From assembly GCA_004144345.1 (NCBI GenBank), contig SEEL01000022.1, positions 1 through 52,734 of the forward strand: DNA of 52,734 nt, in the 5' to 3' direction. Below, in pieces: positions 1,994-49,580 of the stretch. The position numbers and the translations under genes are program-made. Source of the stretch: Hyphomicrobiales bacterium (GTDB lineage Bacteria > Pseudomonadota > Alphaproteobacteria > Rhizobiales > Devosiaceae). The notes beneath the pieces were generated by a model. That model saw only the letters and a list, made by a program, of their open reading frames with translations, ran no database searches and was not told the DNA's origin. Each line of letters opens with the position of its first letter. The first letter of the stretch is position 1.

Positions 1994-3654
<1,661 letters not shown>

Positions 3655-3658
<4 letters not shown>

Positions 3659-8356: not shown

Positions 8357-11300
8357 GGCCCGGTCGACTGGACCTCGACGGTGCCGGCATCGGTGTTGCC
8401 GCGGAACTCCGGCCGGTACATGTCTTCAACCGTCGCGCCCGGCATCACGAAATTGCCTGGCGAGGTGGCACGCACCATGTAGGCGGTCGAGAAGTTCTCG
8501 AGCGCCGACTGGTAGCGGAAGGCGGCGACATATTGGTCGGTCCGCGATTCCACATGGGTCGGCATGGTGACGCTGATCCAGCTGAGCTCCGACACGCCAC
8601 CGGCCTGCGACAGATCCGGGTTCTCGATCTCGAAGCCGGCGGGCAGCGGATCGACGACCAGATACTGGCCCGAACCCAATTGCGTCGGCGTCATCGTGAG
8701 GATCACCACGAAGCGGTCATTCTGGTGGACGTCGGAGAGATCGGCCGGATTGCCATCGGGCGTGTAATAGCTGCGCTCGATGGTGAAGCCATTGTCGGTG
8801 GCCGGCGGCGGCTCGGTCGGGATACCGGTCACCGAAATCTTCATCTCGGTGGCGGTCGTGCCATTGTTGGTGATGGTCACCGGGCCGGTGTCGAACTCTT
8901 CCTGCATGTAGTGGCGATAGACCGTGCCATCGAGCGCCTGGCCATCGACGACGATCTTGCCGTCGCCGGTGGTGCGGGCGAGCGTCGAGGCCGCGATCAG
9001 CGTCCAGGCATCGTCCTGCGTCGAGGTCCAGCGGGCAAGGTCGCGGAGTTCGGCGAGCCGGCTGGTGAGCGCCGGGATGTCGACGCCACTGGGCTTGAAC
9101 TCACCCACAAGGGCAAGCACGGCCGCCGTGTCACGCAGCTGGCTGCCATAGTCGCGGCGGTAGCTGCGCGGGTCTTCCTTGATTTCGAGGGCATCGACGG
9201 CCGCCTGGAAGGCCTGGCTCGAGCGGGTGCGGTCGCCATAGAGGGCGAGCGCGGCGCCGAGCTGGGCCTTGGCGAGCGGCGTGCCGAAGCGGTCGAGCCG
9301 TGCCTCGAAATAGTAGCGGAGGTCACCGATGGCGGCACGGCCGGCGCGAGCCAGATCGTACAGCGCATAGGCGATGTCTTCGCCGCCGACCTCGAAGTCC
9401 GAGGCGTAGCTGAGCTGGTTGCCCAGATTGTCGAGCGCCATCGTCATCGCCTGTTCCGGCACGACGAAGCCCTTGACCTTGGCGCGGAGCAGGAACTCCG
9501 TGACATAGGAGTCGAGCCAGAGGTCGGTCCAGCTATAGGCGCCCCAGAGCCCGAAGCTGCCCGAGGACGTCTGCTTCGACAGCAGGTCCGCGATGGCATC
9601 CTTGATGCGCTGGTCGAGCTCGGCATCGGTGCCGAGACCCAGGGCATTGGCCACGTCGTTGAGGTAGAGCAGCGGCATGGCGCGGCTGGTCACCTGCTCG
9701 GCGCAACCATAGGGGTAGCGGTCGAGCTGCAACAGCAGCTGCGGCACGTCGAGGCGGGAGACCGGCCCAACAGCCAGCGTCAGGAAGCCGGTGTTGTTGA
9801 CGATCTTGGCAAAGCGCTCCTGCTCGAGCGAGACGGTCTCGCCCGGCGCGAGCGGGATCAGTTCGCTGGTCGTCTGCTCGGCGGCGATGGCGCGGACGCC
9901 CAGCGTCAGCTCCTTCACCATCGAGACGCCATCGGGCTGGGTGATGATGACCTTGAGGTCATTGTTGCCGATGCGCGTGCCGGTGAGGCCGAGATTGAGC
10001 GCGGTGCGCTCACCCTGGGCAAGATCGAAGCTGCTGGTCGGCACGTCGGTCGAGAGGCCATCCTGGGTGATCAGCTCGACCTTGTAGGTGCCGGCCGGAC
10101 CCGAGATGTTGTTGACCTCGACGAGGAGACGCGAGCTGTCGTCGAGACGGAGGAACCGCGGCGGGCTCATCGTCACGACTACCGGATCGCGCACATAGAC
10201 GTCCTGCTGCGCATGGCCGACGGCACTATCCGTCCACGCCATCGCCATCAGGCGCGCCGTACCCGCGAAGTCGGGCATGTCGAAGCTGATTTCGGCGGTG
10301 CCATCGGCCCCGACCTCGACGATGCCCGAATGCAGCGCGAGCAGCACGGACGTTGCCGGCGGCGTCGACAGGCGGCCGCCCGAGCCGTCACCACCGACGC
10401 GCAACGCGCCGGCCATGCCCTGGGTCGGGTCGATCAGCATGCCGTAGAGATCGCGGAACTCGACGCCGAGCTGGCGCTGGCCGAAATAATAGCCATCGGG
10501 ATCGGGCGTCTGGTAGCGCGTCAGGTTGAGGATCCCGAGATCGACCGCCGCGACGGCCACATAGGCCTTTTCGCCCGGCTTCACATTGGCAAGCTTCACC
10601 TTGGTGGTGAAGGCCTGCCGCGGCAGCGTCGATTCCGGCGCCTCGAAGCTCACATCGAGCTTGCGGTCGGCGGGATCGACATCGGCATAAGCGAGGCCCA
10701 GCGCGCGCGCCGGCATCCGCTTTTCGGCGGCGTCGGACGGACGGTAGAGGATCGCCGTGACATAGGCGCCCGGCCCCCAGCTCTCGTTGACGGTGAGCGG
10801 CACGGTGGTGCCGCCTTCCGGCACCTCGACGGCATGCATCTCGATGATGCGGTCATCGACCACCATCACGAGGGCCGTGCCGGCGAACTGCGGATCGAGC
10901 TTCAGATTGGCGGTCTCGCCGATCTTGTAGGTGGGCTTGTCGAGCACGACGCGGAGCGTATCCGGCGTGTCCGACCCGGCCTGGGCGTAGTAATAGCCGG
11001 CGTAGAATTTGTAGCTCGACGAGGTCGCGCCGCTGCCGGTGCTTTCCACTTCGAGCAGATACTGGCCCCAGGTCACAGGCGCCGAAATGCCGACCGGTCC
11101 ACCGGCCTTGGCATCGACGGTACCGTCGGCGATCTGGCGCGTCGTGGTGATCGCTTCCCACTGCCAGGTGCCATTGTTGCGGTACCATTGGTAATTGGTC
11201 TCGATGCGCGACAGCGTCCACCTGATGCCATCCTTGTCGATCGCCTTGTTGTCGGGCGAGACGGCAATGATGTCGAAGCTCGCGCTGGAGTTTTCGGCGA

Positions 11301-22510: not shown

Positions 22511-22591
22511 GATAGTCCTTCCTGTTGTTGTAATCAGATACGGAAGGGCGGGAAGATCGGATGCATGGCCGCGCAAATAATGCGGCAGCGG

Positions 22592-22622
22592 TGATCCGGT
22601 CGCGAACCGGCTCCGTTATTCT
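22592..22622 (+). promoter_or_regulatory. Candidate RpoE (ECF11) autoregulatory promoter
   Basis: TGATCC (22592-22597) matches the conserved -35 box of RpoE/ECF11 promoters, and TTATTC (22616-22621) stands 18 bases downstream as a possible -10. The spacer holds an inverted repeat CCGGT-CGCGA-ACCGG. The site lies between the divergent FAD oxidoreductase and rpoE genes and points to rpoE. Autoregulation by RpoE is known in Rhodobacter. The -10 assignment is uncertain. Confidence 0.5.
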
Positions 22623-22734
22623 GGCCATGAGCTTGGACATTTCCGTAAGCCACAAGGCGTGGCACAAGGGGTTTCCGCCGCTGCGGCGCTATCGGCGCCC
22701 GGCGGCACTGAAACGGATTGAACCGAACCGACCG

Positions 22735-23307
22735 ATGGAGCCGACGACCACGACACCGGCCGAACCCAATATGTCCGACCTGCTGGTGCAGGTGGGGCAG
22801 ACTCATGATGTCGAGCTGTTCGAGCAGCTGTTCCGCCATTTCGGACCGCGGGTGAAGGCCTATATGGCCAAGACCGGCAGCCCGGGCATGGCCGAGGAGC
22901 TGATGCAGGAGACCATGGTCGCCGTCTGGAAGAAGGCCGCCATGTATGATGCCAGCAAAGGCGCGGCCTCGACCTGGATCTTCTCGATCGCCCGTAATCT
23001 GCGCATCGACGCCTACCGGCGCGAAAAGCACCCGGAGTTCGACCAGAACGATCCGGCGTTGCAGCCGGTGGTGGAAACCGCCGCCGACAGCCGGCTCGAA
23101 GGCGAGCAATCGGCGACCCTGATCCGCCGGGCGCTGGATGAACTGCCGCCCGATCAGGCCGAGGTGCTGCGCCTCGCCTATTATGAGGACAATTCGCAGA
23201 GCGAGATCGCGACGGCCCTGTCGCTGCCGCTCGGCACGGTGAAATCACGGATGCGGCTGGCTTTTGCCAAGCTGCGCGCCGTTCTTGGACCTGGAGAACT
23301 GAATTGA
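22735..23307 (+). CDS. rpoE: ECF sigma factor RpoE (ChrR-controlled, singlet-oxygen response)
   Basis: 190 residues from the ATG at 22735; alternatives are ATG 22771 (12 codons later) and ATG 22627. No strong ribosome binding site decides. A start at 22561 would lie upstream of the candidate promoter. Region 2 begins with FEQLFRHFGPRVKAYMAKTG, then ELMQETMVAVWKKA (2.2-2.3), TWIFSIARNLRIDAYRR (2.4), and region 4 has LPPDQAEVLRLAYYEDNSQSEIA with LPLGTVKSRMR. This is the ECF11 pattern of Rhodobacter sphaeroides RpoE. The sigma factor is held by ChrR and released by singlet oxygen. Its TGA is overlapped by the chrR start. Confidence 0.92.
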   Translation: MEPTTTTPAEPNMSDLLVQVGQTHDVELFEQLFRHFGPRVKAYMAKTGSPGMAEELMQETMVAVWKKAAMYDASKGAASTWIFSIARNLRIDAYRREKHPEFDQNDPALQPVVETAADSRLEGEQSATLIRRALDELPPDQAEVLRLAYYEDNSQSEIATALSLPLGTVKSRMRLAFAKLRAVLGPGELN

Positions 23308-23951
23308 CTGCCCGCCATCACATTGGTGACGATCTGCTGCTGGCCTATGCCGCCGGCAATCTGGCCGAGGGCTGGAGTCTTGCCGTTGCGACGCATGTGT
23401 CGCTGTGCGCCGAATGCCGCGAGCGCCTCGCCGTGGCCGAGGCTGCCGGTGGGCAGCTGCTGGAAACGCTCGACCGCGAAACCGTGGCGCCCGATTCCTG
23501 GGCCGCCATCCGCAGCCGCCTCGGCACGCCCGATGCGCCCGCGGTGACGCGCCGCTCCAGCGATACCGCCATCCTGCCCAAGCCGCTCCGCGACTATGTC
23601 GGCGGCGACGTCGATGCCATCCGCTGGCAGCGGCTGGGCAAGGGCGCCGCGCAGTTGCGGCTGAAGACCGGCGATCGCGAGACGCAGGTGCGCCTGCTCA
23701 AGATTCCCGCCGGAAAGCCGGTGCCGGAGCATTCGCATTCGGGCCGCGAAATCACCGTGGTGCTGTCGGGCGCCTTCCATGATGGCACGACGCTGTTTGC
23801 GCGCGGCGATGTCGAGGAGGCGGATGACGATATCCAGCACATCCCGACCGCCACGCCCGAGGCCGATTGCATCTGCCTCGCCGTCACCGAGGCGCCGCTG
23901 AAGTTCCGCAGCTGGATTGTCCGCGCCATCCAGCCGATCCTGGGAATCTGA
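23304..23951 (+). CDS. chrR: Zinc-dependent anti-sigma factor ChrR
   Basis: 215 residues with a TTG start that overlaps the rpoE stop (TTGA). GGAG lies about 8 bases before it. The N-terminal anti-sigma domain keeps H6, H31, C35 and C38 (TARHHIGDD; ATHVSLCAEC), the same numbering as the four zinc ligands of R. sphaeroides ChrR. The C-terminal half is a cupin with H143, H145 and E149 (EHSHSGREITVVLSG), the domain needed there for release of RpoE by singlet oxygen. So both the inhibitory and the sensing halves look functional. Translational coupling to rpoE should keep sigma and anti-sigma levels balanced. Confidence 0.95.
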   Translation: MTARHHIGDDLLLAYAAGNLAEGWSLAVATHVSLCAECRERLAVAEAAGGQLLETLDRETVAPDSWAAIRSRLGTPDAPAVTRRSSDTAILPKPLRDYVGGDVDAIRWQRLGKGAAQLRLKTGDRETQVRLLKIPAGKPVPEHSHSGREITVVLSGAFHDGTTLFARGDVEEADDDIQHIPTATPEADCICLAVTEAPLKFRSWIVRAIQPILGI

Positions 23952-23953
23952 CC

Positions 23954-24358
23954 ATGCTGAAATATCTCGTCGCCTATGTCGTCACGGCAGTGGTCTTTCT
24001 CGGCCTCGACTATCTGTGGCTGACCAAGATTGCGCTCGGCATGTACCGGCGCGAACTGGGCGGCCTGCTGCTCGAGCAGCCCAACCTGGTGATTGCCGGC
24101 GTGTTCTACCTGCTGTTCGTCGTCGGCATCGTGGTGCTCGCCATCCACCCGGCGCTCGGCGGTGGTGGCTGGCTGACGGCGCTGCTGCTCGGCGCGGTGC
24201 TCGGCCTGGTTGCCTATGGCACCTATGACATCACCAACCTCTCGACCCTCAAGGGCTGGTCGGTTGCCGTGACGGTTGCCGATGTCGCCTGGGGCACGGC
24301 CCTGACCGCCGTTTCCGCCACAATCGGCTATTGGGTGGTGTCCGCACTAAACCTCTAG
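23954..24358 (+). CDS. DUF2177 family membrane protein
   Basis: 134 residues, four hydrophobic segments (about 3-22, 49-68, 74-95, 108-130). The N-terminal pattern YLVAYVVTAVVFLGLDYLWL and YGTYDITNLSTLKGW are the family signature. The family has no assigned activity; it recurs in RpoE-ChrR neighbourhoods of alphaproteobacteria. The ATG follows the chrR stop by two bases, so it is almost surely transcribed with rpoE-chrR. A role in the membrane response to singlet oxygen is an inference from context. Confidence 0.88.
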   Translation: MLKYLVAYVVTAVVFLGLDYLWLTKIALGMYRRELGGLLLEQPNLVIAGVFYLLFVVGIVVLAIHPALGGGGWLTALLLGAVLGLVAYGTYDITNLSTLKGWSVAVTVADVAWGTALTAVSATIGYWVVSALNL

Positions 24359-24435: not shown

Positions 24436-27400
24436 TTGGGCAAGATCTTCATCTCGCATTCTTCGGCGAACAACGCCGAGGCGCTGGCGATCCACGATTG
24501 GCTGGCCGAGCAGGGCTGGGGCGATGTCTTTCTCGACCTCGACCCCAAGCGCGGCCTCGTCGCCGGCGACCGCTGGCAGGCGGCGCTCAAGGCCGCCGCC
24601 GAGCAATGCGAGCTGATCCTCATCCTGATCAGCCCGGCCTGGGCCAAATCCAAATGGTGCCTCGCCGAGTTCCTGCTCGCCAAGCAGATGAACAAGCAGA
24701 TCCTAGGCGTGGTGGTCGAGGCGACGCCGATCGGCGATCTGCCGGTCGAACTGACCGCCGAATGGCAATTGGTCGACCTCAGCGCCCCCGATACGGGCTG
24801 GTCGGTGACGATTTCGCCGCCGCGCTACGAACCCGAAACGACCGTCAATTTCTCCGGCACCGGCCTCGCCCGCCTCCGCACCGGGCTTGAGAAGGCCGGG
24901 CTCGACGCCACCACCTTCCACTGGCCGCCCGCCGGCGACCCCACGCGCGCGCCCTATCGGGGCCTCTTGCCGCTCGACCATGACGATGCCGGCATCTTCT
25001 TCGGCCGCGATGGCGCGATTGTCCTGACGCTCGACCGGTTGCGCGGGCAGCGCGAAGCGGCGGCGCCGCGTTTCACCACCATTCTGGGCGCGTCGGGGGC
25101 GGGCAAATCGTCCTTCCTTCGCGCCGGCATCCTGCCGCGCCTCGCCCGCGACTCCCGGCACTTCTATGTGCTGCCGATCATCCGCCCCGAACGCGCCGCG
25201 CTTTCAGGCGAGCACGGCTTTGCCGCGATGCTCGACAGCGCGCTGCGCGCCCGCAACATCGTGCGCAACCGCGCCGATATCCGCGACGCCGTGCTGGCCG
25301 GTGCTAATGCCGTCGCGCCCTTCCTCCGCGATCTCGCCATCCCCGAGGATGCCGGCGATGGCACGGCGCATTCGCCACCGGCACTGGTCATTGCCATCGA
25401 CCAGGCCGAGGAACTGCTGAGCGCCGACAATGCGGAGGCGGGTGCGTTCCTGACGCTGCTCGCCGACCTCGGCCGCCGTGACGATCCGCCGATCATGGTG
25501 ATCTTCACCGTTCGCTCCGACAGCTTCGACCAGCTGCAATCGCGCCCGGAACTGGCCCCCACGCAGCCGCATCAGCTGGTCGATCTGCCGCCGATCCCGG
25601 CGGGCAGTTTCGGCGACATCATTCGCGGCCCGGCCCGCCGGATGAGCGCCGCCGGCCGCAAGCTGCATGTCGACGAGACGCTGGTCGATGCGCTGCTCTC
25701 TGATATCGAGGAGGGCGGCACCAAGGATGCGCTGCCGCTGATGGCCTTCACGCTCGAACGGCTTTTTACCGAATATGGCGCCGACGGCGATCTGCAGCTC
25801 GCCGAATACGAAAAGCTCGGCCGCATCCGGGGCGCCATCGAGGCGGCCGTGGAGCAGGCGCTGCTGAAGGCCGACGACAATCCGGCCATTCCGCGCGACC
25901 GCGCGGCGCGGCTGATCCTGCTGCGTCGCGGCCTCATCCCCTGGCTCGCCGGCATCGACCCCAACACCGGCTCGCCGCGGCGCCGCGTCGCGCGCCTCGC
26001 CGAAGTGCCTGAAGAAGCGCGGCCGCTGATCGAACTGATGGTGGAGCAGCGCCTGCTCGCCACCGATGTCGATACCGCCACCAAGGAGCGCACCATCGAG
26101 CCGGCGCATGAGGCGCTGCTCCGCCAATGGGGCGCGCTCGACGGCTGGCTGGTCGAGGATACGGCGGCGCTCGCGACCATCGAGGCGCTGCGCCGCGCCG
26201 CCAGCGAATGGGACGCCAATACCCGCGCCAGCGAGTTCATCATCCATCGCGGCGCCCGCCTTGAGGCGACCGAGCAGATGGCTACCGACGCGAAGTTCGC
26301 GACCTATCTCACCTCGATCGACAGCGCCTATCTGAGCGCCGCCCGCAACCTCGAAAACAGTGCGATCAAGAAGGCCCGCGCCGCCCGCACCCGCTGGCTC
26401 AGCGCCGCCGCCATTGCCGGCGTGGTGCTCGTCGCGGGCGCGACGGCGGGCTATTTCACCTGGTCGGCTGGTGAAGCCGCCAAGACTCAGGCGGCGGTCA
26501 ATTTCGAGATCGCCCGTGGCGAAGCTGCCCTGCGCGACGGCCGCCCCGAGGACGCGGCGCGTGCCGCGCTCACCGCCTACGCCCTGTCGCCCTCGACCAA
26601 TACGCGCACCGCGGCACTCACCGGCGCGATGGCGGTATCGGCCAACAGCCTCGGCGCGTTCCCCTTCGCCGATCGTGTCGTCGACACGACATGGCTCGCG
26701 CCCGGCAGACTGGTGGTTCTCACCGCGAAGGGCGAGGTCACTGAGATCGATGTCGCCGCCCGCACGACCTCGAACCTGGCCGCCATCGCCGCAACGCCGC
26801 TGCCTATCGCGCTGGCAGCCGACATGCAGGGCAGTGCCGCAGTCTATCGTGCCGATGCCAGCATCACCGGCCTTGATGGCGCGACGCTGCTGGCGCCGCC
26901 GCAACCAGCCTTCGCGGCGCGCGCGGGCGCCGTGGTCAGCGGTGCCGATGGCAAGCTCGTCGCCTACACCGGCCTCATCGGCGACATGCTGGTCCGCGAC
27001 TGGCGCACGCTGCCCGCCATCGACACGCTGCCCAACGAGCCCGGCGCGCTCGCCATCGCCTTCAAACCCAATGGCAGCAAGCTCGTGGTGCTGCGGCCGA
27101 ACGGCGATCTCGCGACCTATGCCGATATCGCCGCCGAACCGCAGGTGACGGCCTCGGGCATCACCAAGGCGACGGCGATGGATCTCGCCCATGTCATCGA
27201 CTACCTCGCCATCAGTTCGGGGGCGGGCGAGGTGACGATGCTGGCGCTCGCCAATCCAACGGACCGTGTCACCATCAAGACCGGCGCCAAGTCGAACCTC
27301 GTGGCGTGGTCGCCGCTCGAGCAATTGCTCGCCGCCCCATGCGGCAGCAACGATGTCTGCGTCTATGGCCGCGGCGGCGCGCTGCGCCAGCAGATGCATG

Positions 27401-28521
27401 GGCACAAGGCGCCCATCGCCTCGCTGCGCTGGAGCCCCGATGGGCTGCATCTCGCCACCTCGTCCTCCGATGGCAATGTGCGCCTCTGGTCAGTCGCGCC
27501 CGACCGCCATGTCAGTTTCGAGTTGCGCGCCGATGAGCCGAAACCGCTGGCCGCGCTGGCTGTCGATCGCGCCACGCAGCGCATCGCGGCCGGCGATGCA
27601 TCGGGCACCATTTGGGTGTGGACCGGAGATGAGCCTGCGGTGCGCCTGCCGCCGCCGGACGAACTCGCGGGCGACCGCCTGTCGGTCGCCTCGCTCGCCT
27701 TCCTCAGCGACGGACGGCTCGCGGCGGTCTACCTCAATCGCGGCGTCGCCGTGTGGTCGGTGGAACGGCAGGCGACCGATCGCGTGACCGTCCTCGACAA
27801 TCTCAGCTTCTCGCGCGTCGCTGCATTGACCGGCGACATCCGCGCTGCCGTGCCGCTGAGCGACAAGACCATGCTGGTGTTCTCAGGCGATGAACTGCGC
27901 GAGGCGCGTATCGCCGCCGACACGATGCCGCTCGACCAATGGGGCGTCACGGCCGCGCCCGCCGCCAACGCCGCCTTCGTCTCCTATTCCGACGGCACCA
28001 TCCGCCGTCGCGACCTCGGCACAGGCGCCGAGGGCACAGTGGCATTTGACGCCAGCCAATCCATCTGCGGCCTCGCCCCGACCATCGACAACAATGGGGC
28101 CAAGAGTCTCGATGTCAGTGCCGACGGCAAATGGCTGGTCGCGACGCGCGCCGACAGCTCAGTCGTCGTGCACAGTCTTGCCGATCCCGCGAAGCCGCTC
28201 TGCCTCGCGCTGCCGGCACCCGACAGCAAGACGGTCGCCTTCTCGCCGGACTCGCGCCGTCTCGCCATCCTCAGCGCCACCGACCGGCTCTTTGTCTTCG
28301 ATCTCGCCGCGCCCGACAGCGCGCTGATCTTCGACGCGCCGGCCGTGCCCGTGAATTCGCCGCTGACCGACGGCGCCGGGGCAGCGCGCACCAGCTCATG
28401 GCTCGGCTGGCGCGACGACAATACCCTGGCCATCGCCACGGCGGCCGGCTCGGTCGAACTGATTGCGCTCGATCCGGCGGGGTGGCGGACGCGGGTAGAC
28501 TCGCTGTCGTCAGCCCCATAA
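24436..28521 (+). CDS. TIR - STAND NTPase - transmembrane - WD40 protein
   Basis: 1361 residues if translation begins at the TTG at 24436 (GKIFISHSS); a TTG four codons upstream is the alternative, and no ribosome binding site is clear. Residues 1-130 are a TIR domain (TIR_2 type: DPKRGLVAGDRW, then WCLAE with E78 at the position of the NADase glutamate). Residues of about 172-600 are a STAND NTPase module: PYRGLLPL and FFGRD, Walker A GASGAGKSS (218-226), Walker B LVIAIDQAEEL. A single membrane helix lies at about 652-672 (WLSAAAIAGVVLVAGATAGYF). The remainder is a WD40-like propeller with a clear repeat near residue 987 (HKAPIASLRWSPDG). With the positive residues before the helix, the TIR-NTPase half should be cytoplasmic and the propeller periplasmic. 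This architecture is that of a conflict or stress sensor with a possible NAD-cleaving output; activity is not shown. The MORN gene follows 32 bases later. Confidence 0.85.
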   Translation: MGKIFISHSSANNAEALAIHDWLAEQGWGDVFLDLDPKRGLVAGDRWQAALKAAAEQCELILILISPAWAKSKWCLAEFLLAKQMNKQILGVVVEATPIGDLPVELTAEWQLVDLSAPDTGWSVTISPPRYEPETTVNFSGTGLARLRTGLEKAGLDATTFHWPPAGDPTRAPYRGLLPLDHDDAGIFFGRDGAIVLTLDRLRGQREAAAPRFTTILGASGAGKSSFLRAGILPRLARDSRHFYVLPIIRPERAALSGEHGFAAMLDSALRARNIVRNRADIRDAVLAGANAVAPFLRDLAIPEDAGDGTAHSPPALVIAIDQAEELLSADNAEAGAFLTLLADLGRRDDPPIMVIFTVRSDSFDQLQSRPELAPTQPHQLVDLPPIPAGSFGDIIRGPARRMSAAGRKLHVDETLVDALLSDIEEGGTKDALPLMAFTLERLFTEYGADGDLQLAEYEKLGRIRGAIEAAVEQALLKADDNPAIPRDRAARLILLRRGLIPWLAGIDPNTGSPRRRVARLAEVPEEARPLIELMVEQRLLATDVDTATKERTIEPAHEALLRQWGALDGWLVEDTAALATIEALRRAASEWDANTRASEFIIHRGARLEATEQMATDAKFATYLTSIDSAYLSAARNLENSAIKKARAARTRWLSAAAIAGVVLVAGATAGYFTWSAGEAAKTQAAVNFEIARGEAALRDGRPEDAARAALTAYALSPSTNTRTAALTGAMAVSANSLGAFPFADRVVDTTWLAPGRLVVLTAKGEVTEIDVAARTTSNLAAIAATPLPIALAADMQGSAAVYRADASITGLDGATLLAPPQPAFAARAGAVVSGADGKLVAYTGLIGDMLVRDWRTLPAIDTLPNEPGALAIAFKPNGSKLVVLRPNGDLATYADIAAEPQVTASGITKATAMDLAHVIDYLAISSGAGEVTMLALANPTDRVTIKTGAKSNLVAWSPLEQLLAAPCGSNDVCVYGRGGALRQQMHGHKAPIASLRWSPDGLHLATSSSDGNVRLWSVAPDRHVSFELRADEPKPLAALAVDRATQRIAAGDASGTIWVWTGDEPAVRLPPPDELAGDRLSVASLAFLSDGRLAAVYLNRGVAVWSVERQATDRVTVLDNLSFSRVAALTGDIRAAVPLSDKTMLVFSGDELREARIAADTMPLDQWGVTAAPAANAAFVSYSDGTIRRRDLGTGAEGTVAFDASQSICGLAPTIDNNGAKSLDVSADGKWLVATRADSSVVVHSLADPAKPLCLALPAPDSKTVAFSPDSRRLAILSATDRLFVFDLAAPDSALIFDAPAVPVNSPLTDGAGAARTSSWLGWRDDNTLAIATAAGSVELIALDPAGWRTRVDSLSSAP

Positions 28522-28553
28522 TCTCGCGGCGAAATCTGGGCTTGGGGGAGCAT

Positions 28554-30389
28554 ATGGGCAGGGTGCAGAAACTGGCGCTGGTACTGGCGCTCGGCACCGC
28601 GCTCGCTGCGCCCGCTGTCGCCGGCACGGTGACGCCGGTCGATCCCGCGAGCCTCAACTCCACCGCCTGGCCCGGCAGCGCCGACGGCGCCCTGCGCAGC
28701 TGGGTGCAACTGGTGTGGAATCCGGTGACGCGCCAGCTCGAACGCCTCAGCTATGCGGCCTGGGACCCGGTGCCGTCGCTCGGGCTCGAACTGCAATGGG
28801 TGCCCGATGATCCCAAGGCGTTGGGCTCCGGCCCGATCAGCGGCAAGGGCACGCTGAGCTTCCGCCGTCCGGGCGCCGCCGCCTACGATCCATCCGGCAC
28901 CGTAGCGCATTATCGCGGCACGCTGGTCGATGGCCGCGCCGACGGCCCCGGTCAATATCTCGACAGCGGCGGCTTCGCCTATGAGGGCGAGTGGCGGGGC
29001 GGGCTGATGGATGGCAGGGGCCGCCTGTCGCTCGCCAATGGCGACGAATATGTCGGCCAGTTCGTCGCCGGCAAGCGGCAGGGCAGGGGCGTCTTCATCG
29101 ATTCGACCGGCGCCATCTATGACGGCGAATTCCTCGCCGGCGAGCGCGACGGCGAGGGGCTGTTCGTGCCGGTCGCGGGTGATGCCTATCGGGCCGACTG
29201 GAACGACGGTCTGGAAGTGCCGGGCACGCGCGATATGTTGCCGGTGGGACTCGTGCCCTATCCGCGCCTGAGCAAGGCGCAGTCTGCCGAAGTGGAAGGC
29301 GTGCGCATCGGGGTGGTCGCCGAGCGCCGCCCGCACAATTACGCGCTGGGCCTCGATCCGCTGAGCTACACCAGCCAGTCCGACGGACAGCAGCTCAACA
29401 TCTTCCCCGACGATCAGCGCCTGCTCGATGTGTGGCACGGCAATGTGCCCATCAACCTCACCCCCGACGAAATCTTCGCCTTCGACAACATTTCCACCAC
29501 GCCGAGTTTCCTCGGCCCGTGGGAACGCTTCGATCCGCTGTCGCTGGTATTCGAGATCGAGAACGCCACCGTCGATCCGCTCACCCTCGTTGGCGGCTAT
29601 CTCAACGTCACCACCAGCGCGCGCAATCGCGAGCCGGCCATGCAGGTGCGGCCCATTCCGCGCGATCCCTGCTCGGGCCAGATCGAGTTCGAACCCGCCT
29701 TCTTCATCGACAATTTCGGTTGGGCCAGTGCCGACAATGCCGCGATCAATGTGAGCGCTGGATCGGTCGATGGCCGGGCCGTGGGCGCCCCCTTCAGCGT
29801 GCCGCTCGGCAGCATCGGCGACAGCATCAAGGCCGATGTGACCAATGAGCTCGAAGCGCTCGGGCTCAATGTCGACTATGTGTCGAAGAACAAGCTGGTC
29901 TGCACCGACCCCAATGATGAGCGGCTCTGCCTTGGCGAGCTGCGCCAATCCGGCAATTTCGGCCAGCTCAGCGACTATATCGGGCTCGACTATCTCACCG
30001 TCACGGTCGGCATCGCTGGCACGCTCGACTATGATTGGGCGGCTTCGGATGGCGCCGTGTCGCACAAGAGCTCGCCCTTCACCATGATCCTGCCGGTGGC
30101 ATCGGTCGCGAGCGATGCCGAATGCGGCGAGGGCGGCGAGATCGTGCCGGTCAGCCACGACCCGTTCATGCTGCATCTCGATGAGAGCAACTACAAGATC
30201 GCGATCCCGTTTGCGGGCGATGTCGAGCCGGGCTTCACCTCACGCTGGCGGCTCGAACTGCAGGCGCCCGAAACCTCCGAGCACGACTTCCAGCTGGTGC
30301 TGCTGCTCGCCGATGGCCAGCAGATCGCCTCGCGTCCCGTGCATCTCACCTATTTCACCCCGCGCCAGCACGAGGTGCTGCGCGACTAG
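28554..30389 (+). CDS. Secreted MORN-repeat protein
   Basis: 611 residues from the ATG at 28554 with GGGGGAG in front; the open frame runs farther upstream but only through the STAND gene. A signal peptide (KLALVLALGTALAAPAVAG) precedes an unassigned segment, then four MORN repeats at about 120-215 (YRGTLVDGRADGPGQY, YEGEWRGGLMDGRGRL, YVGQFVAGKRQGRGVF, YDGEFLAGERDGEGLF). The C-terminal 380 residues match nothing I recognise; they are rich in beta-type segments and hold a few cysteines (DPCSGQIEF, KLVCTDPNDERLCLG, DAECGEGG). It is probably transcribed with the TIR-STAND gene. Its stop shares CTAG with the convergent Memo-CapA gene. Confidence 0.8.
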   Translation: MGRVQKLALVLALGTALAAPAVAGTVTPVDPASLNSTAWPGSADGALRSWVQLVWNPVTRQLERLSYAAWDPVPSLGLELQWVPDDPKALGSGPISGKGTLSFRRPGAAAYDPSGTVAHYRGTLVDGRADGPGQYLDSGGFAYEGEWRGGLMDGRGRLSLANGDEYVGQFVAGKRQGRGVFIDSTGAIYDGEFLAGERDGEGLFVPVAGDAYRADWNDGLEVPGTRDMLPVGLVPYPRLSKAQSAEVEGVRIGVVAERRPHNYALGLDPLSYTSQSDGQQLNIFPDDQRLLDVWHGNVPINLTPDEIFAFDNISTTPSFLGPWERFDPLSLVFEIENATVDPLTLVGGYLNVTTSARNREPAMQVRPIPRDPCSGQIEFEPAFFIDNFGWASADNAAINVSAGSVDGRAVGAPFSVPLGSIGDSIKADVTNELEALGLNVDYVSKNKLVCTDPNDERLCLGELRQSGNFGQLSDYIGLDYLTVTVGIAGTLDYDWAASDGAVSHKSSPFTMILPVASVASDAECGEGGEIVPVSHDPFMLHLDESNYKIAIPFAGDVEPGFTSRWRLELQAPETSEHDFQLVLLLADGQQIASRPVHLTYFTPRQHEVLRD

Positions 30390-32032
30390 GGCTTGGTGAG
30401 GTCGAAGAGGTTGGGGATCGGCACCAGCCGCACGGCGATCGTGCCCTGCCGGAACACCCGCAATTCGAGCAGCGTGCCGGAGCCGCGCGGCGCCGACTGG
30501 TCGAAGATGAAATTGCCCAGCGAATAGGCCAGCTGCGCCGCGCCGCCGCGCAGCACCTCGATGCGCTCGCTCGCCTGATGCGAATGCGCGCCGACGATCA
30601 GCGACACGCCACACCGTGCCAGCGTCTCCGCTATGCGCCGCTCCTTGTCGCTGGCGCCCACATATTCCTTGCCCCAATGGAGGAACGCCACCAGCGGCGG
30701 CGCGGCATCGAGGTCGCACACCCAGTCCAGCGCCTCAGGATCGGCGATGGCCTCGCCGATGAATTTACCGCCAACGAAATTGAGCGGCAGCAGGCGGAAG
30801 GCGCCGAGATCGGTCAGGGCGCCATGTTCCATTGCAGCCACGTCGAGCGCGTCGAGCAGCCGCCTGGTCTCGGCGCGACCCTCTGGCCCGAGATCATTGG
30901 CGTGATTGTTGGCAAGGCTCGCGGCACCGATGTTGAGCGCCGCGATGATTGGCGCCGCGTCGGCGGTAACCATCACATGCGTGTTGAAATCGACGCCGGT
31001 CACCGGCCCGTCGAGCAGCACGCCTTCGAGATTGACGATGAGGCTCGTACCCTGCGTTGCCGCCAGTACCGTGTCGCGCAGCCTGCCCCATGATGACGGA
31101 TCGCGCAGGGCAGGCAGAAAATAACGCCCGAGCAGCACATCGCCGCCGAACATCACGCGCGACTGGTCGGCATAGGCGAGCCCGGCGCCATCGTTCGTGT
31201 CCCGCAGCCAGGCGGTCACGATGTAGCTCGTGGTCGAGCCAATGCTGCTGCCATAGTCAACCGAATTGGCATTGGCCAGCACCACGGGATGGGCGCCCGC
31301 CGCACCCTGCAGTGCCATCTGGATGTATTGCGCCGCCTTCGAATCCATATGCGCCGGCTGCAACAGCGGCACGACGCCCTCCGGGTCGCCGGTCGCGACG
31401 ACGGCCAGTGTCTCCTGGTCGCGCGCAATGGCCTCGGCATAGGTCCGGTAGTGCGAATAGTCCGTCGATTGCACGACCAGTGTGTCCGGCGTCACCAGCG
31501 GCAGCAGCGCCGCCGCCATCGTGCGCCAGTCCTCCGGCTTGGCGTTTACCGAAGCGAGCAGGGGCACCACCTCCGCCGCGGGAAAGAAGCGGCGGACGAA
31601 TGGCATCACCGCCATCACGCCATGTTCCGTCTCGATCGTGTCGAGCAGTTCGACGCGCTCATCGGCGGCGAGCGCATCGATGGCGGCCAAATCCGGCGCC
31701 ATCGGTCCGAACACCGTCTCCAGCGTTTCGCGCGTCGTGCCGAACGGCTTGGTCACCTTGTGGAAATGGTCGGGCGAGATCACGATGATCCGGCTGTAGC
31801 GGCCGGCCGAGGCGGCCCAGAAGCCGCGGGCGATGAGATCGGCGGCCAGCAGATGATGCGGCACGCTGATGCCGGTGACCCCGGCGGGCGGCGCGAAGTC
31901 CGGTGCCTCCTTCTCGATGGCGGCGAGGATTGGCGCCGGGTCGCGGGCCGGGAGGTACGGATTGTCGGCCGCCAACGCCGGCCAGCAGAGCAGCGCCAGC
32001 GCTGCCACAATCCGCGTAAACCCTGTCACCAT
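30386..32032 (-). CDS. Exported Memo (AmmeMemoRadiSam B)-CapA fusion protein
   Basis: 548 residues. A signal peptide (IVAALALLCWPALAA) is followed by two domains. Residues of about 25-265 are Memo-like, with PHHLLAADLIARG, SPDHF, EHGVMAVMPFVRRFFP and DYSHYRTYAEA standing for the four conserved blocks of that metal-site family. Residues of about 290-530 are a CapA/PgsA metallophosphoesterase-like domain, with MFGGDVLLGR, NHANDLGPEG, FLHWGKEY, VGAHSHQ and YSLGNFIFDQ. CapA domains are linked to poly-gamma-glutamate capsule anchoring, and Memo proteins are dioxygenase-like with unclear roles. No cap genes and no AMMECR1 or radical SAM partners are adjacent. The gene lies opposite to its neighbours and ends tail-to-tail on the MORN gene. 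Confidence 0.85.
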   Translation of the reverse strand: MVTGFTRIVAALALLCWPALAADNPYLPARDPAPILAAIEKEAPDFAPPAGVTGISVPHHLLAADLIARGFWAASAGRYSRIIVISPDHFHKVTKPFGTTRETLETVFGPMAPDLAAIDALAADERVELLDTIETEHGVMAVMPFVRRFFPAAEVVPLLASVNAKPEDWRTMAAALLPLVTPDTLVVQSTDYSHYRTYAEAIARDQETLAVVATGDPEGVVPLLQPAHMDSKAAQYIQMALQGAAGAHPVVLANANSVDYGSSIGSTTSYIVTAWLRDTNDGAGLAYADQSRVMFGGDVLLGRYFLPALRDPSSWGRLRDTVLAATQGTSLIVNLEGVLLDGPVTGVDFNTHVMVTADAAPIIAALNIGAASLANNHANDLGPEGRAETRRLLDALDVAAMEHGALTDLGAFRLLPLNFVGGKFIGEAIADPEALDWVCDLDAAPPLVAFLHWGKEYVGASDKERRIAETLARCGVSLIVGAHSHQASERIEVLRGGAAQLAYSLGNFIFDQSAPRGSGTLLELRVFRQGTIAVRLVPIPNLFDLTKP

Positions 32033-32105
32033 AATGCCTCTTGGCCGCTTTCCACCTGCCGCATGACCATGCCATGTTGCGCGGCGATTGGGGAAAATCT
32101 CTGCC

Positions 32106-34145
32106 GTGAAGCTTCGCCGGTTCGCTCTTTATGCGCTTGGCCTCGTCGTGCTGGCGGTTGCCGGCGTCGCGCTGGTGTTCTGGGCGCTCTATGCCTGCGC
32201 CCCGCCGCCGCTGCCCGGCGACGAACTCTGGACCTCGCGCCAGAACTTCGGCGAGGCGCTGGGCATCGTGCTGCGCCTCGGCAGCAAGGCCTGCTTCACC
32301 AGCGACACGCTGGGCAGCTTCGCCCTCTGGCTCGGCAGCCGCACCACCGGCGTGCTGGTCGTGCTGCTGGCGCTGGTGGTGCTGTGGGAGACGTTGGGCC
32401 GCGACCTCCGCCGCCGCTTCTTCGTCATGCGCGGCGGCCATGTCGTCCTCGCCGGCACCTATGACGATCTGCGCGAACTGGCGCATCGCCGCCGCAGCTT
32501 CGCCGGCACCTTCTTCCTCGCCCCCGATCGTGCCGCCGCTCTCGATGTGGCGCGCCACCGGCCCTTCGCCGAAATCGTCACCGCCGAGGCCCGCAAGCTC
32601 GGCCGGCAATTGGCGACGCTCGGTGTCGGCAGGGCAAAGCTGCTCGCCGCCGCCACCCGCAACGACCTCACCAATGTCGCCATCGCCGAAGCCGGGCTAT
32701 CGACGCCGGGCGAGGGCGAATTGCTGGTGCGGCTCGAGCAATATGCGGTGCGCGTCTTTTCAAGCCACCGGCTCCGCGTCCGCGCCGCGCAACAGGGCCG
32801 CAAACTCGCCGTCGTGTCGCTGACCCAGCTGCAGGCCCGCCGCGGCATGGCTGCGGCGATGCCCGGCCGCTACACTATGGATGGCGCGCCGCGCGTCCAT
32901 GTCGTGCTCTGCGGTTCCGGCCCGGCGTTGCAGGCCGCGAGCTTCGAGATCGCCCGCCAGGGCTTTGGGCTCGAGCGCGAGAAGCCGCTGCTCTCGATCC
33001 TGCGCACCGGAGCCGGCGATTTCGCCACCGGTGCGCTGCAGCGCCTGCAGAATGCCGGCATCGCCGATGTCGAGGTCAGCGACGTGATGACTTCGGCATC
33101 CGACGGGCTCGACCGCGCCATCGCCGCCACTGTCGAGGATGCGCCGCCATTGATGGCGGTCCATTGCATCGGCGAAAACAGCGGCGAGGCCGAAGCGCTC
33201 GCGCTGCGCTGGGAGGAAGTGCTGCTGGCGCTGCACCAGCCCGTGCCGCCCATCGTCGCCTATGCCGGGCACGATCATCCGCTCGGCTCGACCGGCATGA
33301 TCCGCATCGCCGCCGCCGAGGATCTGGCCAAGGCGCGCGAGGCCGCGCATCTGATGGACCAGCGTGCCCGCGCCGTGCACCAGCAATATCTCGACGGCCA
33401 GCGTGCCGATCGCGGCGACACATTCGGCGCGGCGCCCGCCGAGGTCGAATGGGAAAAGCTCCCCGAGAGCTTTCAGGACGACAACCGCAACGTCGCCGAC
33501 CAGATGGACTACAAGCTCGCCACCGTGTTCATGCTGGCCGGCCGCGGCGAGGCCTGCGCCATGCTCGACCGCGACGAGATCGAGGTGATGTCGGGCATTG
33601 CCCATGCCCGCTGGATGGCAGCCAAGGCGCTCGGCGGCTGGCGCTATGGGCCGGTGCGCGACGACCGCAACATGATCCACCCCGACATGATCCCCTATAT
33701 CGAGCTCACCGAAGCGGCGCGGCAGAAGGACCGCGATGTCGTCGCGAGCCTGCCCGACATGGCCGCGTTGGCGGGCGAAACGCTGCAGCGCGAGCGCCGC
33801 ATCGGCATTCCGCGCGCTTTGGTAGCCGACGCGGTGAAAGCCTTCGCGGCCCATTGCGCGGCGAGCCCCAAGGGTTCGGTGCCGGTGGCCGTCTTACCGC
33901 TCGATGATGCCGGCATGATCCGCCTCGCCGAGGCGCTGCTCGCTGCCGGCATCCGCATCGAAGCGGTGCTCGACCGCTGGGTCGAGACGTTGCGCGCTAG
34001 TGACGAGACGGCCAGCCCGCTCGCCGGCGTGCTGCGCCGCGCCTGGCGCATCCATGTGGTGCGCGAGGGCGAGGCCCGCGATGCGCTGGACGAATTGGTG
34101 ACGGAGATCGTCTATGAATGCGGAGCGATCCATGCGCATCCCTAG
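32106..34145 (+). CDS. Two-helix membrane protein with TrkA-N-like and RyR domains
   Basis: 679 residues from the GTG at 32106 (a TTG six codons earlier is possible). Helix 1 spans about 6-30 (ALYALGLVVLAVAGVALVFWALY) and helix 2 about 80-100 (TTGVLVVLLALVVLWETLG), with some 50 residues between them; no TVGYG-like potassium filter is present. A Rossmann-type TrkA-N-like region follows (HVVLAGTYDDLRELAHRR; RVHVVLCGSGPALQAASF). Residues of about 485-560 are a clear RyR domain (IAHARWMAAKALGGWRYG, then IHPDMIPYIELTEAARQKDR). RyR domains are named from ryanodine receptors; in bacteria they occur with channel- or conflict-type partners and their ligand is unproven. The last 14 bases overlap the caspase gene, so the two are coupled. 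Confidence 0.85.
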   Translation: MKLRRFALYALGLVVLAVAGVALVFWALYACAPPPLPGDELWTSRQNFGEALGIVLRLGSKACFTSDTLGSFALWLGSRTTGVLVVLLALVVLWETLGRDLRRRFFVMRGGHVVLAGTYDDLRELAHRRRSFAGTFFLAPDRAAALDVARHRPFAEIVTAEARKLGRQLATLGVGRAKLLAAATRNDLTNVAIAEAGLSTPGEGELLVRLEQYAVRVFSSHRLRVRAAQQGRKLAVVSLTQLQARRGMAAAMPGRYTMDGAPRVHVVLCGSGPALQAASFEIARQGFGLEREKPLLSILRTGAGDFATGALQRLQNAGIADVEVSDVMTSASDGLDRAIAATVEDAPPLMAVHCIGENSGEAEALALRWEEVLLALHQPVPPIVAYAGHDHPLGSTGMIRIAAAEDLAKAREAAHLMDQRARAVHQQYLDGQRADRGDTFGAAPAEVEWEKLPESFQDDNRNVADQMDYKLATVFMLAGRGEACAMLDRDEIEVMSGIAHARWMAAKALGGWRYGPVRDDRNMIHPDMIPYIELTEAARQKDRDVVASLPDMAALAGETLQRERRIGIPRALVADAVKAFAAHCAASPKGSVPVAVLPLDDAGMIRLAEALLAAGIRIEAVLDRWVETLRASDETASPLAGVLRRAWRIHVVREGEARDALDELVTEIVYECGAIHAHP

Positions 34146-35874
34146 GCTCGGTGGAGCCCTGGCCGCTCTGGCTTTCGCCTTGCTCGCGACCACCGCCGCA
34201 CAGGCGATTGTCCCCATCACCGATGCGCAGTCGCGCAATCGCGACGCCATCGCCCGCCAGCTCGCCCCGCAGCACTCCTACGCGCTGGTCATCGGCATCT
34301 CCGAGTTCGACAATGCCGGCTGGACCGATCTGGGCGGTGTGCACGGTGAAGTGGAGAACGTTGGAGCGGCGCTCCAGCAGCAGGGCTTTACCATCGTGCC
34401 CGAAAGCCGCATCGGCCGGGTCGATCACAAGACGATGACCGAGGCCATCGCGCAGTTCTTTGCCACCTATGGCAGCAAGGCCGAGAACCGGCTGGTGGTC
34501 TACGTCGCGACGCACGGCTATTCCGATCCGTCACGCCCCGACGCCGATGGCTATCTCGTCGCCTCTGATGGCGGCGCGCCGCGCGATGGCGCGGTGACGA
34601 ATGGCTATTCGGTGAAGCAACTGTCCTCGGCGCTCACCTCGCTCGCCGCCCAGCACGTGTTCCTGTTCTTCAACTCCTGCTTCTCGGGCTCCATGTTGCC
34701 CGAGCCGACGCGAGAGTCGAATAACCTCCTCGGCAACAAGCCCGGCACCGCGCTCAGCAAGGAGACGGTGGACTGGACGCTGGATCTGCTGTCGCACAAT
34801 GCGCGGCTGGTGCTGACCGCCGGCAATGCCAGCCAGACCGTCCCCGACGCCAACAATCCGTTCTCGCTCGCCGTGGTCGATGCGCTCAATGGCGAGGCCG
34901 ATGTCGATGGCGACGGCATCATCCTCGGCACCGAGATCGCGCAATTCGTGCGTGGCCGCGTTGCGCGCGCCACCCGCCTTGCCGGTCATGCCAATGACCC
35001 GGTGTTTGCCGTGCTGCCCAAGCTCGTGCCGCCGGTCGAACCGCGTCCCGACGCGCCCGATGCTGGGCGGCTGGACTATGCGTTGCAGGGCGATTTTATC
35101 TTCCTTGCGCCCGATGGCCCGAAGCAGACCGCCGCCGGTGAAGGCGAGCAGCAGGCGCTGCTCAAGGACAAGCAGAGCCGCCTCCTCGCCAATCAATATC
35201 TCGCCTGCATCGACTGTCCGACCATGGTCGAAGTGCCCGGCGTCAGCGCCGACACCCGTGTGGCGCTCGCCGCCACCGAGATCACCTATGCCCAGTGGGA
35301 CGCCTGCTTCCGCGAGAGCGCCTGCACCCGCTATCTGCCCGATGACGGGCTCGGCCGTGGCGACCGTCCGGCGGGCGGCGTCACCTGGCTCGATGCGCTC
35401 GAATACGCCAACTGGCTCGCCACCAAGACCGGCACCGACGCGCCCTGCATCGACTATCGCCTGCCGACCGCCGACGAATGGCGCAGTGCCGCCCTCTATG
35501 GCACGCACGGTAATGTGACGTGGGAAGCCGCCGTCGCCGACAATGCGGCCGTCTGCTGGGGCTGTGGTCCGGGGCAGGACGGCACCGCCGCCATCCGCAC
35601 CGCCGCCTCGCCCGCCAATCCCGCCGGTCTCTACGATATGGTGGGCAATCTGTGGGAATGGGTCGATCAGGACGCCGGCGCCTGCGACCTCACGGCGATC
35701 CGCCAGAACGGCCAGTGCGCGCCAGGGCTGGTGCTCGGCGGCTCCTACGCCACCCGGGCCGATGCCTTGCCGCTGATCGAAGCTGGCGGCGCCGCACCGC
35801 GCACCGGTAATGACCGCCCCTGGTCCTCGCCCACCATCGGCTTCCGCGTCGCCTGCGACGTGAAGCGCGGCTGA
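34132..35874 (+). CDS. Exported caspase-like protease with FGE/SUMF1 domain
   Basis: 580 residues from the ATG at 34132, chosen because GGAG lies 7 bases before it; an ATG six codons upstream would lengthen the signal peptide. The signal peptide ends near AAQA-IVP. Residues 48-310 are a C14 caspase-like domain with H128 (VATHG) and C183 (FFNSCFSG). An EF-hand-like loop DVDGDGIILGTE lies within it at about residues 258-269. Residues of about 355-575 are an FGE-sulfatase/SUMF1 fold (TYAQWDACF, GGVTWLDALEYANWLA, RLPTADEWR, VGNLWEWV, LGGSYATR, TIGFRVAC). The cysteines of true formylglycine-generating enzymes are not at the usual place, so this domain is probably a binding or recognition module. 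Overlap with the RyR gene implies a joint role. Confidence 0.87.
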   Translation: MRIPRLGGALAALAFALLATTAAQAIVPITDAQSRNRDAIARQLAPQHSYALVIGISEFDNAGWTDLGGVHGEVENVGAALQQQGFTIVPESRIGRVDHKTMTEAIAQFFATYGSKAENRLVVYVATHGYSDPSRPDADGYLVASDGGAPRDGAVTNGYSVKQLSSALTSLAAQHVFLFFNSCFSGSMLPEPTRESNNLLGNKPGTALSKETVDWTLDLLSHNARLVLTAGNASQTVPDANNPFSLAVVDALNGEADVDGDGIILGTEIAQFVRGRVARATRLAGHANDPVFAVLPKLVPPVEPRPDAPDAGRLDYALQGDFIFLAPDGPKQTAAGEGEQQALLKDKQSRLLANQYLACIDCPTMVEVPGVSADTRVALAATEITYAQWDACFRESACTRYLPDDGLGRGDRPAGGVTWLDALEYANWLATKTGTDAPCIDYRLPTADEWRSAALYGTHGNVTWEAAVADNAAVCWGCGPGQDGTAAIRTAASPANPAGLYDMVGNLWEWVDQDAGACDLTAIRQNGQCAPGLVLGGSYATRADALPLIEAGGAAPRTGNDRPWSSPTIGFRVACDVKRG

Positions 35875-49208: not shown

Positions 49209-49306
49209 TCCCCCCGGCACGATACAATGCAGCTAAGCCTAGGACGCCGCCCGAAGCCAGTGTCTTGGTCAGACGGGACGCGCGCGCTCATTTGCGCAAG
49301 CGGCCC

Positions 49307-49497
49307 GCCCCACCCACCGGCTACGCCGGTCCCCCCTCCGCGCTTTTTTGCGCTCTGTCCGAAGCAAGCCAAGAGGCGTGCTTCGGCCAACCGCTGATGG
49401 GGAGGGAGTCTCCAGAGCACCGGGCTTTCAGTCAGGTCTCCCTCCTCGGCGCGCAGCGCTGGGGAGGGGGGACCACGCGCTAGCGTGGTGGGTGGGG
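49307..49497. repeat. Mosaic palindromic repeat with insert (copy 2)
   Basis: It has the same outer arms as copy 1 (CCCCACCCACC and GGTGGGTGGGG), with tips CCGGC-TAC-GCCGG and CCACGC-GCTA-GCGTGG, and the same inner block near 49440-49475. Between the arms, relative to copy 1, is an extra stretch of about 55 bases with its own hairpins: GCGC-TTTTTT-GCGC and CCGAAGCA/TGCTTCGG. It fills most of the gene-free stretch 49209-49580. The remaining 49498-49580 shows nothing I can support except the region just before the next gene. Confidence 0.8.
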
Positions 49498-49580
49498 TGA
49501 GCCACGGCCCCGAAGCAATCCCCTTGGCCGTGATCGGCCGCAGGGTTGCGGCGCTGCGCCATGAGCCATATCTTTGGCCC

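Follow-up and report, generated by a model that had tools for sequence, protein, structure and literature searches.

Whether a TIR enzyme, a RyR-domain membrane protein and an exported caspase-like protein encoded side by side in a Devosia genome make up one signalling system or simply lie next to each other is the question raised by a five-gene cluster of a Hyphomicrobiales bacterium (family Devosiaceae). The cluster occupies positions 24436-35874 of the window, by which we mean the whole stretch of 52,734 nucleotides that was analysed (contig SEEL01000022.1 of assembly GCA_004144345.1, positions 1 to 52,734 of the forward strand). We suggest, with a probability of about 0.55, that the locus encodes one signalling system across the inner membrane, in which a nucleotide made by the TIR domain would be read by the RyR protein and would switch on an executor.

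A five-gene cluster conserved within Devosia

The first gene of the cluster (24436-28521, plus strand; TTG start, set by comparison with orthologues) encodes a protein of 1361 amino acids that matches TIR_2, nSTAND1 and WD40 in Pfam with 58.8, 231.9 and 53.8 bits. It is followed, after a gap of 32 bases, by the gene for a MORN-repeat protein (28554-30389, plus strand; 60.8 bits) and by a gene on the opposite strand for a fusion of Memo and PGA_cap domains (Memo-CapA; 30386-32032, minus strand; 47.8 and 92.8 bits, respectively). The RyR membrane protein, which has an RCK/TrkA_N-like region and 679 amino acids, is encoded at 32106-34145 (plus strand), and the caspase (Peptidase_C14)-FGE-like protein at 34132-35874 (plus strand); comparison with orthologues shifted the starts of these two genes to the GTG at 32106 and the ATG at 34132. 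The RyR domain (PF02026) scores 37.1 bits against a cut-off of 27.4 bits, and 40.2 bits in another Pfam run, and the caspase gene product matches Peptidase_C14 with 34.9 bits (cut-off of 21.4) and FGE-sulfatase with 80.0 bits. Topology was judged throughout from a hydropathy scan and counts of the basic residues flanking the spans. The TIR protein has one membrane span and the RyR protein two, while N-terminal signal-like segments are present in the MORN, Memo-CapA and caspase proteins, the Memo-CapA protein having a marginal inner segment as well. The TIR, STAND, RCK and RyR parts are accordingly predicted to be cytoplasmic, and the WD40, MORN, Memo-CapA and caspase-FGE parts to be periplasmic. 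The domains that a sequence-only reading of this DNA had named for all five genes were recovered by Pfam, and its exported and membrane assignments agree with the spans and signal-like segments.

The cluster is conserved as a unit. Among 19 genomes of one genus that we take to be Devosia, namely the window genome (G000) and G001-G018, orthologues of the RyR protein were found in five, the other four being 59-73% identical, and the full-length caspase-FGE protein was found in the same five, with matches to the FGE part only in two further genomes. The TIR-STAND-WD40 protein occurs in these five as well, and there is a partial 47% match in G007. The probability of the RyR and caspase-FGE proteins coinciding in the same five genomes is 1/C(19,5) = 8.6 × 10−5, with no phylogenetic correction, and several of the 14 genomes without the cluster are incomplete drafts (82-87% for the lowest three). 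All five genes have the same order and relative strands in four of the five genomes, while the locus of the remaining one, G004, falls on two contigs, each with the expected part. The Memo-PGA_cap gene keeps its position and strand in the four other Devosia genomes, in one of which it is cut by a contig end, and a 14-base overlap joins the RyR gene to the caspase gene in all five genomes carrying both. At E 1e-10, none of 42 further genomes tested from the family and the order gave a match to the RyR protein; at E 1e-12, the only full-length match in a sample of 385 genomes of the class was in the window genome, with partial matches in three others. The sequence-only reading had called for a survey of co-occurrence and order and had warned that the genes might simply be neighbours. 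In the survey, the TIR-STAND and RyR-caspase genes coincide in related genomes, and this warning is contradicted by the co-occurrence and order in Devosia and by the recurrence in other lineages described below. In our judgement, the five genes very probably form one functional system.

Residues kept in the TIR, RyR and caspase proteins

The TIR_2 domain (24445-24783, plus strand) contains Glu78 (bases 24667-24669), which is invariant in all eight aligned TIR domains and which, when a profile of these eight was compared with PDB, was aligned with the glutamate of the YCLNEM motif of SpbK. We take Glu78 to be at the expected catalytic position of an NADase. A PDB search with the TIR domain alone gave no match at E 0.01; the profile of eight TIR domains did match. 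The membrane span of the protein lies at 26395-26451 (plus strand), and the basic residues are found mainly on its N-terminal side, which predicts that the TIR-STAND part lies inside and the WD40 part outside the inner membrane. The TIR_2-nSTAND1-WD40 architecture was also found by Pfam in loci L047 and L111, and in the L119 counterpart TIR_2 was found by Pfam and the STAND and WD40 parts by tblastn. The window genome has seven TIR_2 matches besides that of the cluster, one of them below the cut-off and with a stop.

The core of the RyR domain (33582-33749, plus strand) holds His500, Trp503, His525 and Asp542, which match H75, W78, H100 and D117 of the phage protein RyDEP, with the same offsets from the first histidine (3, 25 and 42) in both proteins. 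These four residues of RyDEP hold ADP-ribose and are conserved family-wide, animal RyRs included, according to the preprint PMC13232231. The two histidines and the tryptophan are kept in all 12 aligned large RyR proteins and the aspartate in 11 of them; the RyR proteins found later retain HxxW and a subsequent histidine, with a shifted spacing in some. Two cysteines of the loop, C31 and C63, occur in all five Devosia RyR proteins and in none of the seven others aligned.

A family profile of the N-terminal half of the RyR protein (nine sequences) was also compared with PDB and matched GsuK (E 2e-12), TrkA (5.5e-10) and KefC (6.3e-9), and MthK with E 3e-5 to 3e-4. These profile matches suggest a relationship between the N-terminal half and RCK potassium channels. 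No TrkA_N match was found by Pfam in the window protein itself; among the 12 relatives scanned, seven exceed the cut-off (L037, L048, L012, L110, L111, L112 and L114), L036 stays below it (19.1 vs 23.8), and L047, L038, L113 and L115 have none. A second RyR/TrkA_N membrane protein, of 841 amino acids, is encoded elsewhere in the window genome (G000:C102:70209-70403; L012, 7532-10057, minus strand); it has a SLOG-like tail recognised by eye, and no TIR, caspase or patatin match lies beside it.

The catalytic pair of the caspase-FGE protein, H128 and C183, is present in six of six sequences. The protein also contains an EF-hand-like loop, DVDGDGIILGTE (34900-34935, plus strand), of which D257, D259, D261 and E268 are kept in the same proportion (6/6), and which may bind Ca2+. 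The N-terminal signal-like segment occurs in all five Devosia sequences, in agreement with the earlier suggestion that the caspase has a signal peptide and would act outside the cytoplasm, and an exported caspase is compatible with a signal that crosses the inner membrane by way of the RyR protein. A caspase-FGE fusion is also encoded directly 3' of the RyR gene in L047. Besides the caspase of the cluster, the window genome has five C14 matches, a lower bound like all such counts, as the C14 genome search did not report the cluster caspase-FGE in any of the five Devosia genomes. At E 1e-40, 28 of the 385 genomes of the class matched the caspase-FGE protein; besides the window, only the match in G341 extends over nearly the whole length, and the remaining matches listed are confined to the FGE part. 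The caspase-FGE protein was therefore rejected as a marker of the system, since the 20-kb surroundings of this nearly full-length match in G341 show no match to RyR or TIR.

By analogy with the G500 locus described next, the FGE domain of the Devosia caspase may serve in sensing or in substrate binding and not as an enzyme. In L048 (G500:C202, 29-5308), a diversity-generating retroelement stands beside the RyR gene, with the reverse transcriptase gene (3562-4629) preceding it. The nSTAND1-FGE protein of G500 has a 125-base repeat near its end (2078-2202), and a second copy, the template, follows the reverse transcriptase gene (4640-4764); of the 19 mismatches between the copies, 17 are on adenines of the template copy. 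We take this adenine bias to be the mark of a diversity-generating retroelement, which suggests that the FGE-type domains of these loci bind ligands.

Recurrence of the genes outside Devosia

The genome G549, from another family of the phylum, carries within about 12 kb a caspase gene, an RyR gene, a caspase-FGE gene and a convergent TIR-nSTAND1-WD40 gene, the order of the trio being rearranged relative to Devosia. The caspase-FGE gene lies directly downstream of the RyR gene and overlaps it by 4 bases if the first possible start codon is used, or otherwise begins slightly further on. One TIR_2 match and at least two C14 matches, all at this locus, came out of the genome search; the assembly is 78% complete and the C14 search misses weak members, so more are possible. 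Next to the RyR gene of G176 lie a gene for an FGE-domain protein and the single TIR_2 match of that genome, which is a TIR-WD40 protein.

A second survey, out of sample, was made after the pattern of TIR and RyR genes had already been seen. PF02026 was found in 13 of the 397 genomes of the order, giving six new large RyR proteins and three single-domain ones, and a clear TIR gene by the Pfam cut-off lies near RyR in three of the six large-RyR loci. The TIR_2 gene is adjacent to the RyR gene in G1017 (TIR-nSTAND1-WD40) and G839 (TIR-TPR), and in G954 a TIR-nSTAND1-WD40 gene lies in the same cluster at a distance of at most 7 kb. In G940, the TIR match of the WD40 protein adjoining RyR is below the threshold (24.5 vs 28 bits); no TIR gene was found near RyR in G981, and the G1055 locus ends at the contig edge. 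Three of six TIR-positive loci would have a probability of about 7e-5 to 7e-4 under TIR frequencies of 1.5-3.4% per 20 kb, both of which were assumed and not counted.

The locus of G954, which belongs to another family, begins as in Devosia, with a TIR-nSTAND1-WD40 gene, then a MORN gene (38% identity) and then an opposite-strand Memo-CapA gene (50%). Next come genes for a patatin, a TPR-S/cyclase protein, the RyR protein and an FHA-trypsin protein, of which the RyR gene lies on the other strand. A WG-repeat protein is also encoded in this locus; together with the TPR-S/cyclase and FHA-trypsin proteins it is an addition to the TIR-MORN-Memo-RyR set (L119, 3024-4151; L112, 8119-13575). MORN orthologues adjoin TIR-STAND in L008-L010 as well as in L112, and the latter locus also has the Memo-PGA_cap gene. 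No caspase match was found within the stretch examined, and G954 has the patatin; the caspase is therefore not an obligatory part. The executor has likely been exchanged between lineages, being a caspase in some and a patatin in others. The earlier proposal that the signal runs from TIR through RyR to the caspase is thus borne out in part: the genes form a unit, the TIR glutamate and the RyR contact residues are kept, and a caspase is not always found.

Altogether, 13 lineages with large RyR proteins (593-841 amino acids) were counted: the Devosia cluster, G000:C102, G255, G176, G130/G492/G686 (one family, taken as one lineage), G549, G500, G1055, G1017, G954, G940, G839 and G981. G500 and G1055 were counted despite a contig end beside the RyR gene, the G1017 contig is just 9 kb long, and G940 was counted as a lineage and not as TIR-positive; G603 (L046), G474 (L050) and G044, G811 and G951 (L116-L118) were left out. 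Hydropathy predicts one or two N-terminal spans in 12 of the 13 proteins and none in that of G940. Patatin is encoded near RyR in four lineages, and the other neighbours include a SLATT/DUF4231 protein in G255 and SLOG-like proteins recognised by eye, with no Pfam match. The hidden Markov models used for the neighbourhoods were partly built from the scanned loci; the TIR matches of the six TIR-positive lineages were confirmed by Pfam.

A proposed signalling scheme and its rivals

In the scheme we propose, the periplasmic WD40 part of the TIR-nSTAND1 protein would sense a disturbance there, which may be contact with a phage, damage to the envelope or a protein partner, for instance the MORN protein, and ATP-driven assembly of the STAND part would then cluster the cytoplasmic TIR domains. 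The clustered TIR domains would convert NAD+ to an isomer of cyclic ADP-ribose (cADPR). On the cytoplasmic side, this nucleotide would be bound by the RyR domain of the membrane protein encoded nearby, acting as a receptor rather than an off-switch. The RCK-like gating region and the two spans of that protein would thereupon change state, leading to ion passage or to movement of a periplasmic loop, and the executor would be switched on. This would be the exported caspase-FGE protein in Devosia and G549, perhaps together with Ca2+ through the EF-hand-like loop, and the patatin phospholipase in other lineages, and the outcome would be cell death or arrest. Among the parts of the scheme, we judge it fairly likely that the RyR domain binds the nucleotide made by the TIR domain, whereas a caspase switched on by the signal read by RyR comes close to even odds at best; phage defence as the main role seems to us evenly balanced. 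The wider view that bacterial RyR domains are receptors for TIR-made cADPR isomers, coupled by an RCK-type mount to a periplasmic caspase or phospholipase, and that phage RyR proteins steal the signal, is a tentative one that we would place short of even odds.

In some Thoeris systems, a TIR product, N7-cADPR, activates a caspase-like protease. The present locus resembles them in that a TIR domain with the NADase glutamate (by alignment) and a caspase-like protein are encoded together. However, the TIR domain is here part of a longer protein with nSTAND1, a membrane span and WD40, the RyR membrane protein is separate and the caspase is exported. Membership of Thoeris was rejected, as NCBIfam ThcB4 scored 33.5 bits against a cut-off of 220 bits and the ThsB models of PADLOC at most 20.7 bits, with no curated cut-off. 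A direct action of cADPR on animal ryanodine receptors has long been disputed, and a 2015 survey of nucleotide-centric conflict systems may mention bacterial RyR domains. Phage RyR-domain proteins, as described in PMC13232231, bind or cleave 2'cADPR and 3'cADPR. The window protein shares with RyDEP and the phage RyR sponges the RyR (R12) domain and the four equally spaced ligand residues; it differs from them in being encoded by the host, in having membrane spans and RCK-like domains in the same chain, and in a gene position next to a TIR gene and not in a phage counter-defence operon. Modules with caspase, TIR, STAND and FGS domains are described in PMC7159879, as is an EACC1-caspase two-gene membrane system, which is similar to the present pair in having a 5' membrane gene and then a gene for a caspase whose C-terminal domain varies. 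In our locus, however, the membrane partner is RyR/RCK-like and has two spans against one, and membership of this type was rejected as well, with 57.8 bits against the cut-off of 140 bits of the EACC1-associated caspase model. GsuK, MthK and TrkA, which gave matches to the RyR N-terminal profile, have a membrane span followed by an RCK-like Rossmann region, as seems to be the case here; the added RyR domain and the lack of a recognisable selectivity filter set the window protein apart.

Several observations weigh against the proposed scheme. Among the 13 large-RyR lineages, a clear TIR gene lies near RyR in six and a caspase gene in two. G007 has a TIR-STAND protein without the cluster, and the full-length caspase-FGE gene of G341 has no RyR or TIR match within 20 kb. 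The RyR contact residues are a necessary and insufficient sign of ligand binding and do not prove a cADPR ligand, because they are conserved across the family, animal RyRs included. The selectivity filter of K+ channels has a canonical TVGYG-like motif, and it was not seen in the 19 RyR proteins scanned: within the first 250 residues, GYG is present in one (L049), where it lies in the Rossmann glycine loop, and GFG in five, so that we would at most guess at an ion-channel role. The AlphaFold model of the RyR protein (five sequences) is poor, with a predicted local distance difference test score (pLDDT) of 57.6 and a predicted TM-score (pTM) of 0.28, and the matches of this model in Foldseek, to GsuK, CASTOR and TrkA with TM-scores of at most 0.20, give a hint only. 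Save for the second caspase described below, the flanking genes checked are metabolic or housekeeping genes and form no evident defence island, and PADLOC yields weak matches only.

In a different view, the RyR domain reads a general metabolite (NAD+, ADP, ATP or ADP-ribose) and the cluster is a circuit for envelope or redox stress, with TIR as an NAD+ depleter or scaffold. GsuK, which ranks first among the PDB matches to the N-terminal half of the RyR protein, has an NAD-bound structure (4gx2), and in G000 and G004 the cluster follows a pair of ECF sigma factor and ChrR-like cupin genes. No clear TIR gene was found near RyR in seven of the 13 lineages, of which two are cut by contig ends and one has a sub-threshold TIR. 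However, a clear TIR gene near the other six is above chance by rough estimates, one of which is post hoc and ignores phylogeny and another of which uses the assumed TIR frequencies given above, and indicates that the pairing is favoured and not obligatory; we consider a general metabolite unlikely. The RyR protein might instead be an off-switch that cleaves or sequesters the TIR product and so protects the cell as long as the signal is weak, the effector being the caspase directly or the loss of NAD+. RyDEP is a glycosidase with an H75/D117 dyad (PMC13232231), the window protein has both of these residues equally far apart, and the 313-amino-acid RyR protein of the phage-like region L050 would fit the role of a sponge. 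In the same source, however, RyDEP cleaved the signal and none of the eight homologues tested did, while six of the eight bound it. It would also be odd for a hydrolase of a soluble signal to be built as a large membrane protein and to be encoded in overlap with an exported protease, and we regard the off-switch as quite improbable. It could finally be argued that the genes are chance neighbours of separate function, given that TIR and caspase proteins are common in Devosia (seven TIR_2 and at least five C14 matches elsewhere in the window genome) and that the Memo-CapA gene lies on the opposite strand. This is hardly credible in the face of the same five of 19 genomes, the kept order, the 14-base overlap of the RyR and caspase genes in five of five and the recurrence in unrelated lineages, and chance neighbourhood was rejected on the co-occurrence in Devosia and the recurrence elsewhere.

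Signalling by TIR-made nucleotides is known, and a RyR receptor for them would be new, no printed description having been found in the literature searched. Among the matches listed, the search gave no account of a bacterial TIR-RyR receptor system; the one work listed on RyR domains that act on TIR signals, PMC13232231, concerns phage proteins, neither RyR nor ryanodine occurs in the main text of PMC7159879, and RyR does not occur in that of PMC9503650. A bacterial locus in which a TIR enzyme and a RyR membrane protein travel together would make it possible to test, in a compact setting, whether RyR reads a TIR nucleotide, and would help to explain why phages have RyR proteins that bind or destroy such nucleotides. 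The proposed scheme also suggests a TIR immune system in which both sensor and executor are periplasmic and are linked by a second messenger by way of the cytoplasm. It further suggests a module whose executor is swapped among lineages, being either a caspase or a patatin.

The surroundings of the cluster differ among the Devosia species. Directly 5' of it in the window lie genes for an ECF sigma factor, a ChrR-like cupin and DUF2177 (22561-24358), which are also present in G004 (L022). One common insertion site is unsupported: the genes on the TIR side vary, and the DUF2177 gene precedes the cluster in G000, G004 and G005, but is on a separate contig in G008 and gave no match in G018. A glucuronate isomerase gene lies 3' of the cluster in G000, G005 and G008. 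About 10 kb past the cluster, the window encodes a second caspase (46224-49220, minus strand; 999 amino acids, C14 127.7 bits), divergent from a trypsin-PDZ (HtrA-like) gene at 49485-50483.

RyR domains also occur in other settings. The RyR proteins of L116-L118 (G044, G811 and G951) are free-standing, with 95-121 amino acids, the full ligand motif and Pfam scores of 113.5-121.9 bits, and no TIR match was found within the stretches examined. In L050 (G474, 8734-9675), the RyR domain ends the 313-amino-acid protein mentioned above, whose gene is next to an SSB-like gene (by eye) within a phage-like region; like the phage RyR proteins, it might act as a sponge for the signal. In L046 (G603, 7041-9563), the RyR domain is joined to a protein with repeats that, by eye, resembles a RelA/SpoT-type synthetase.

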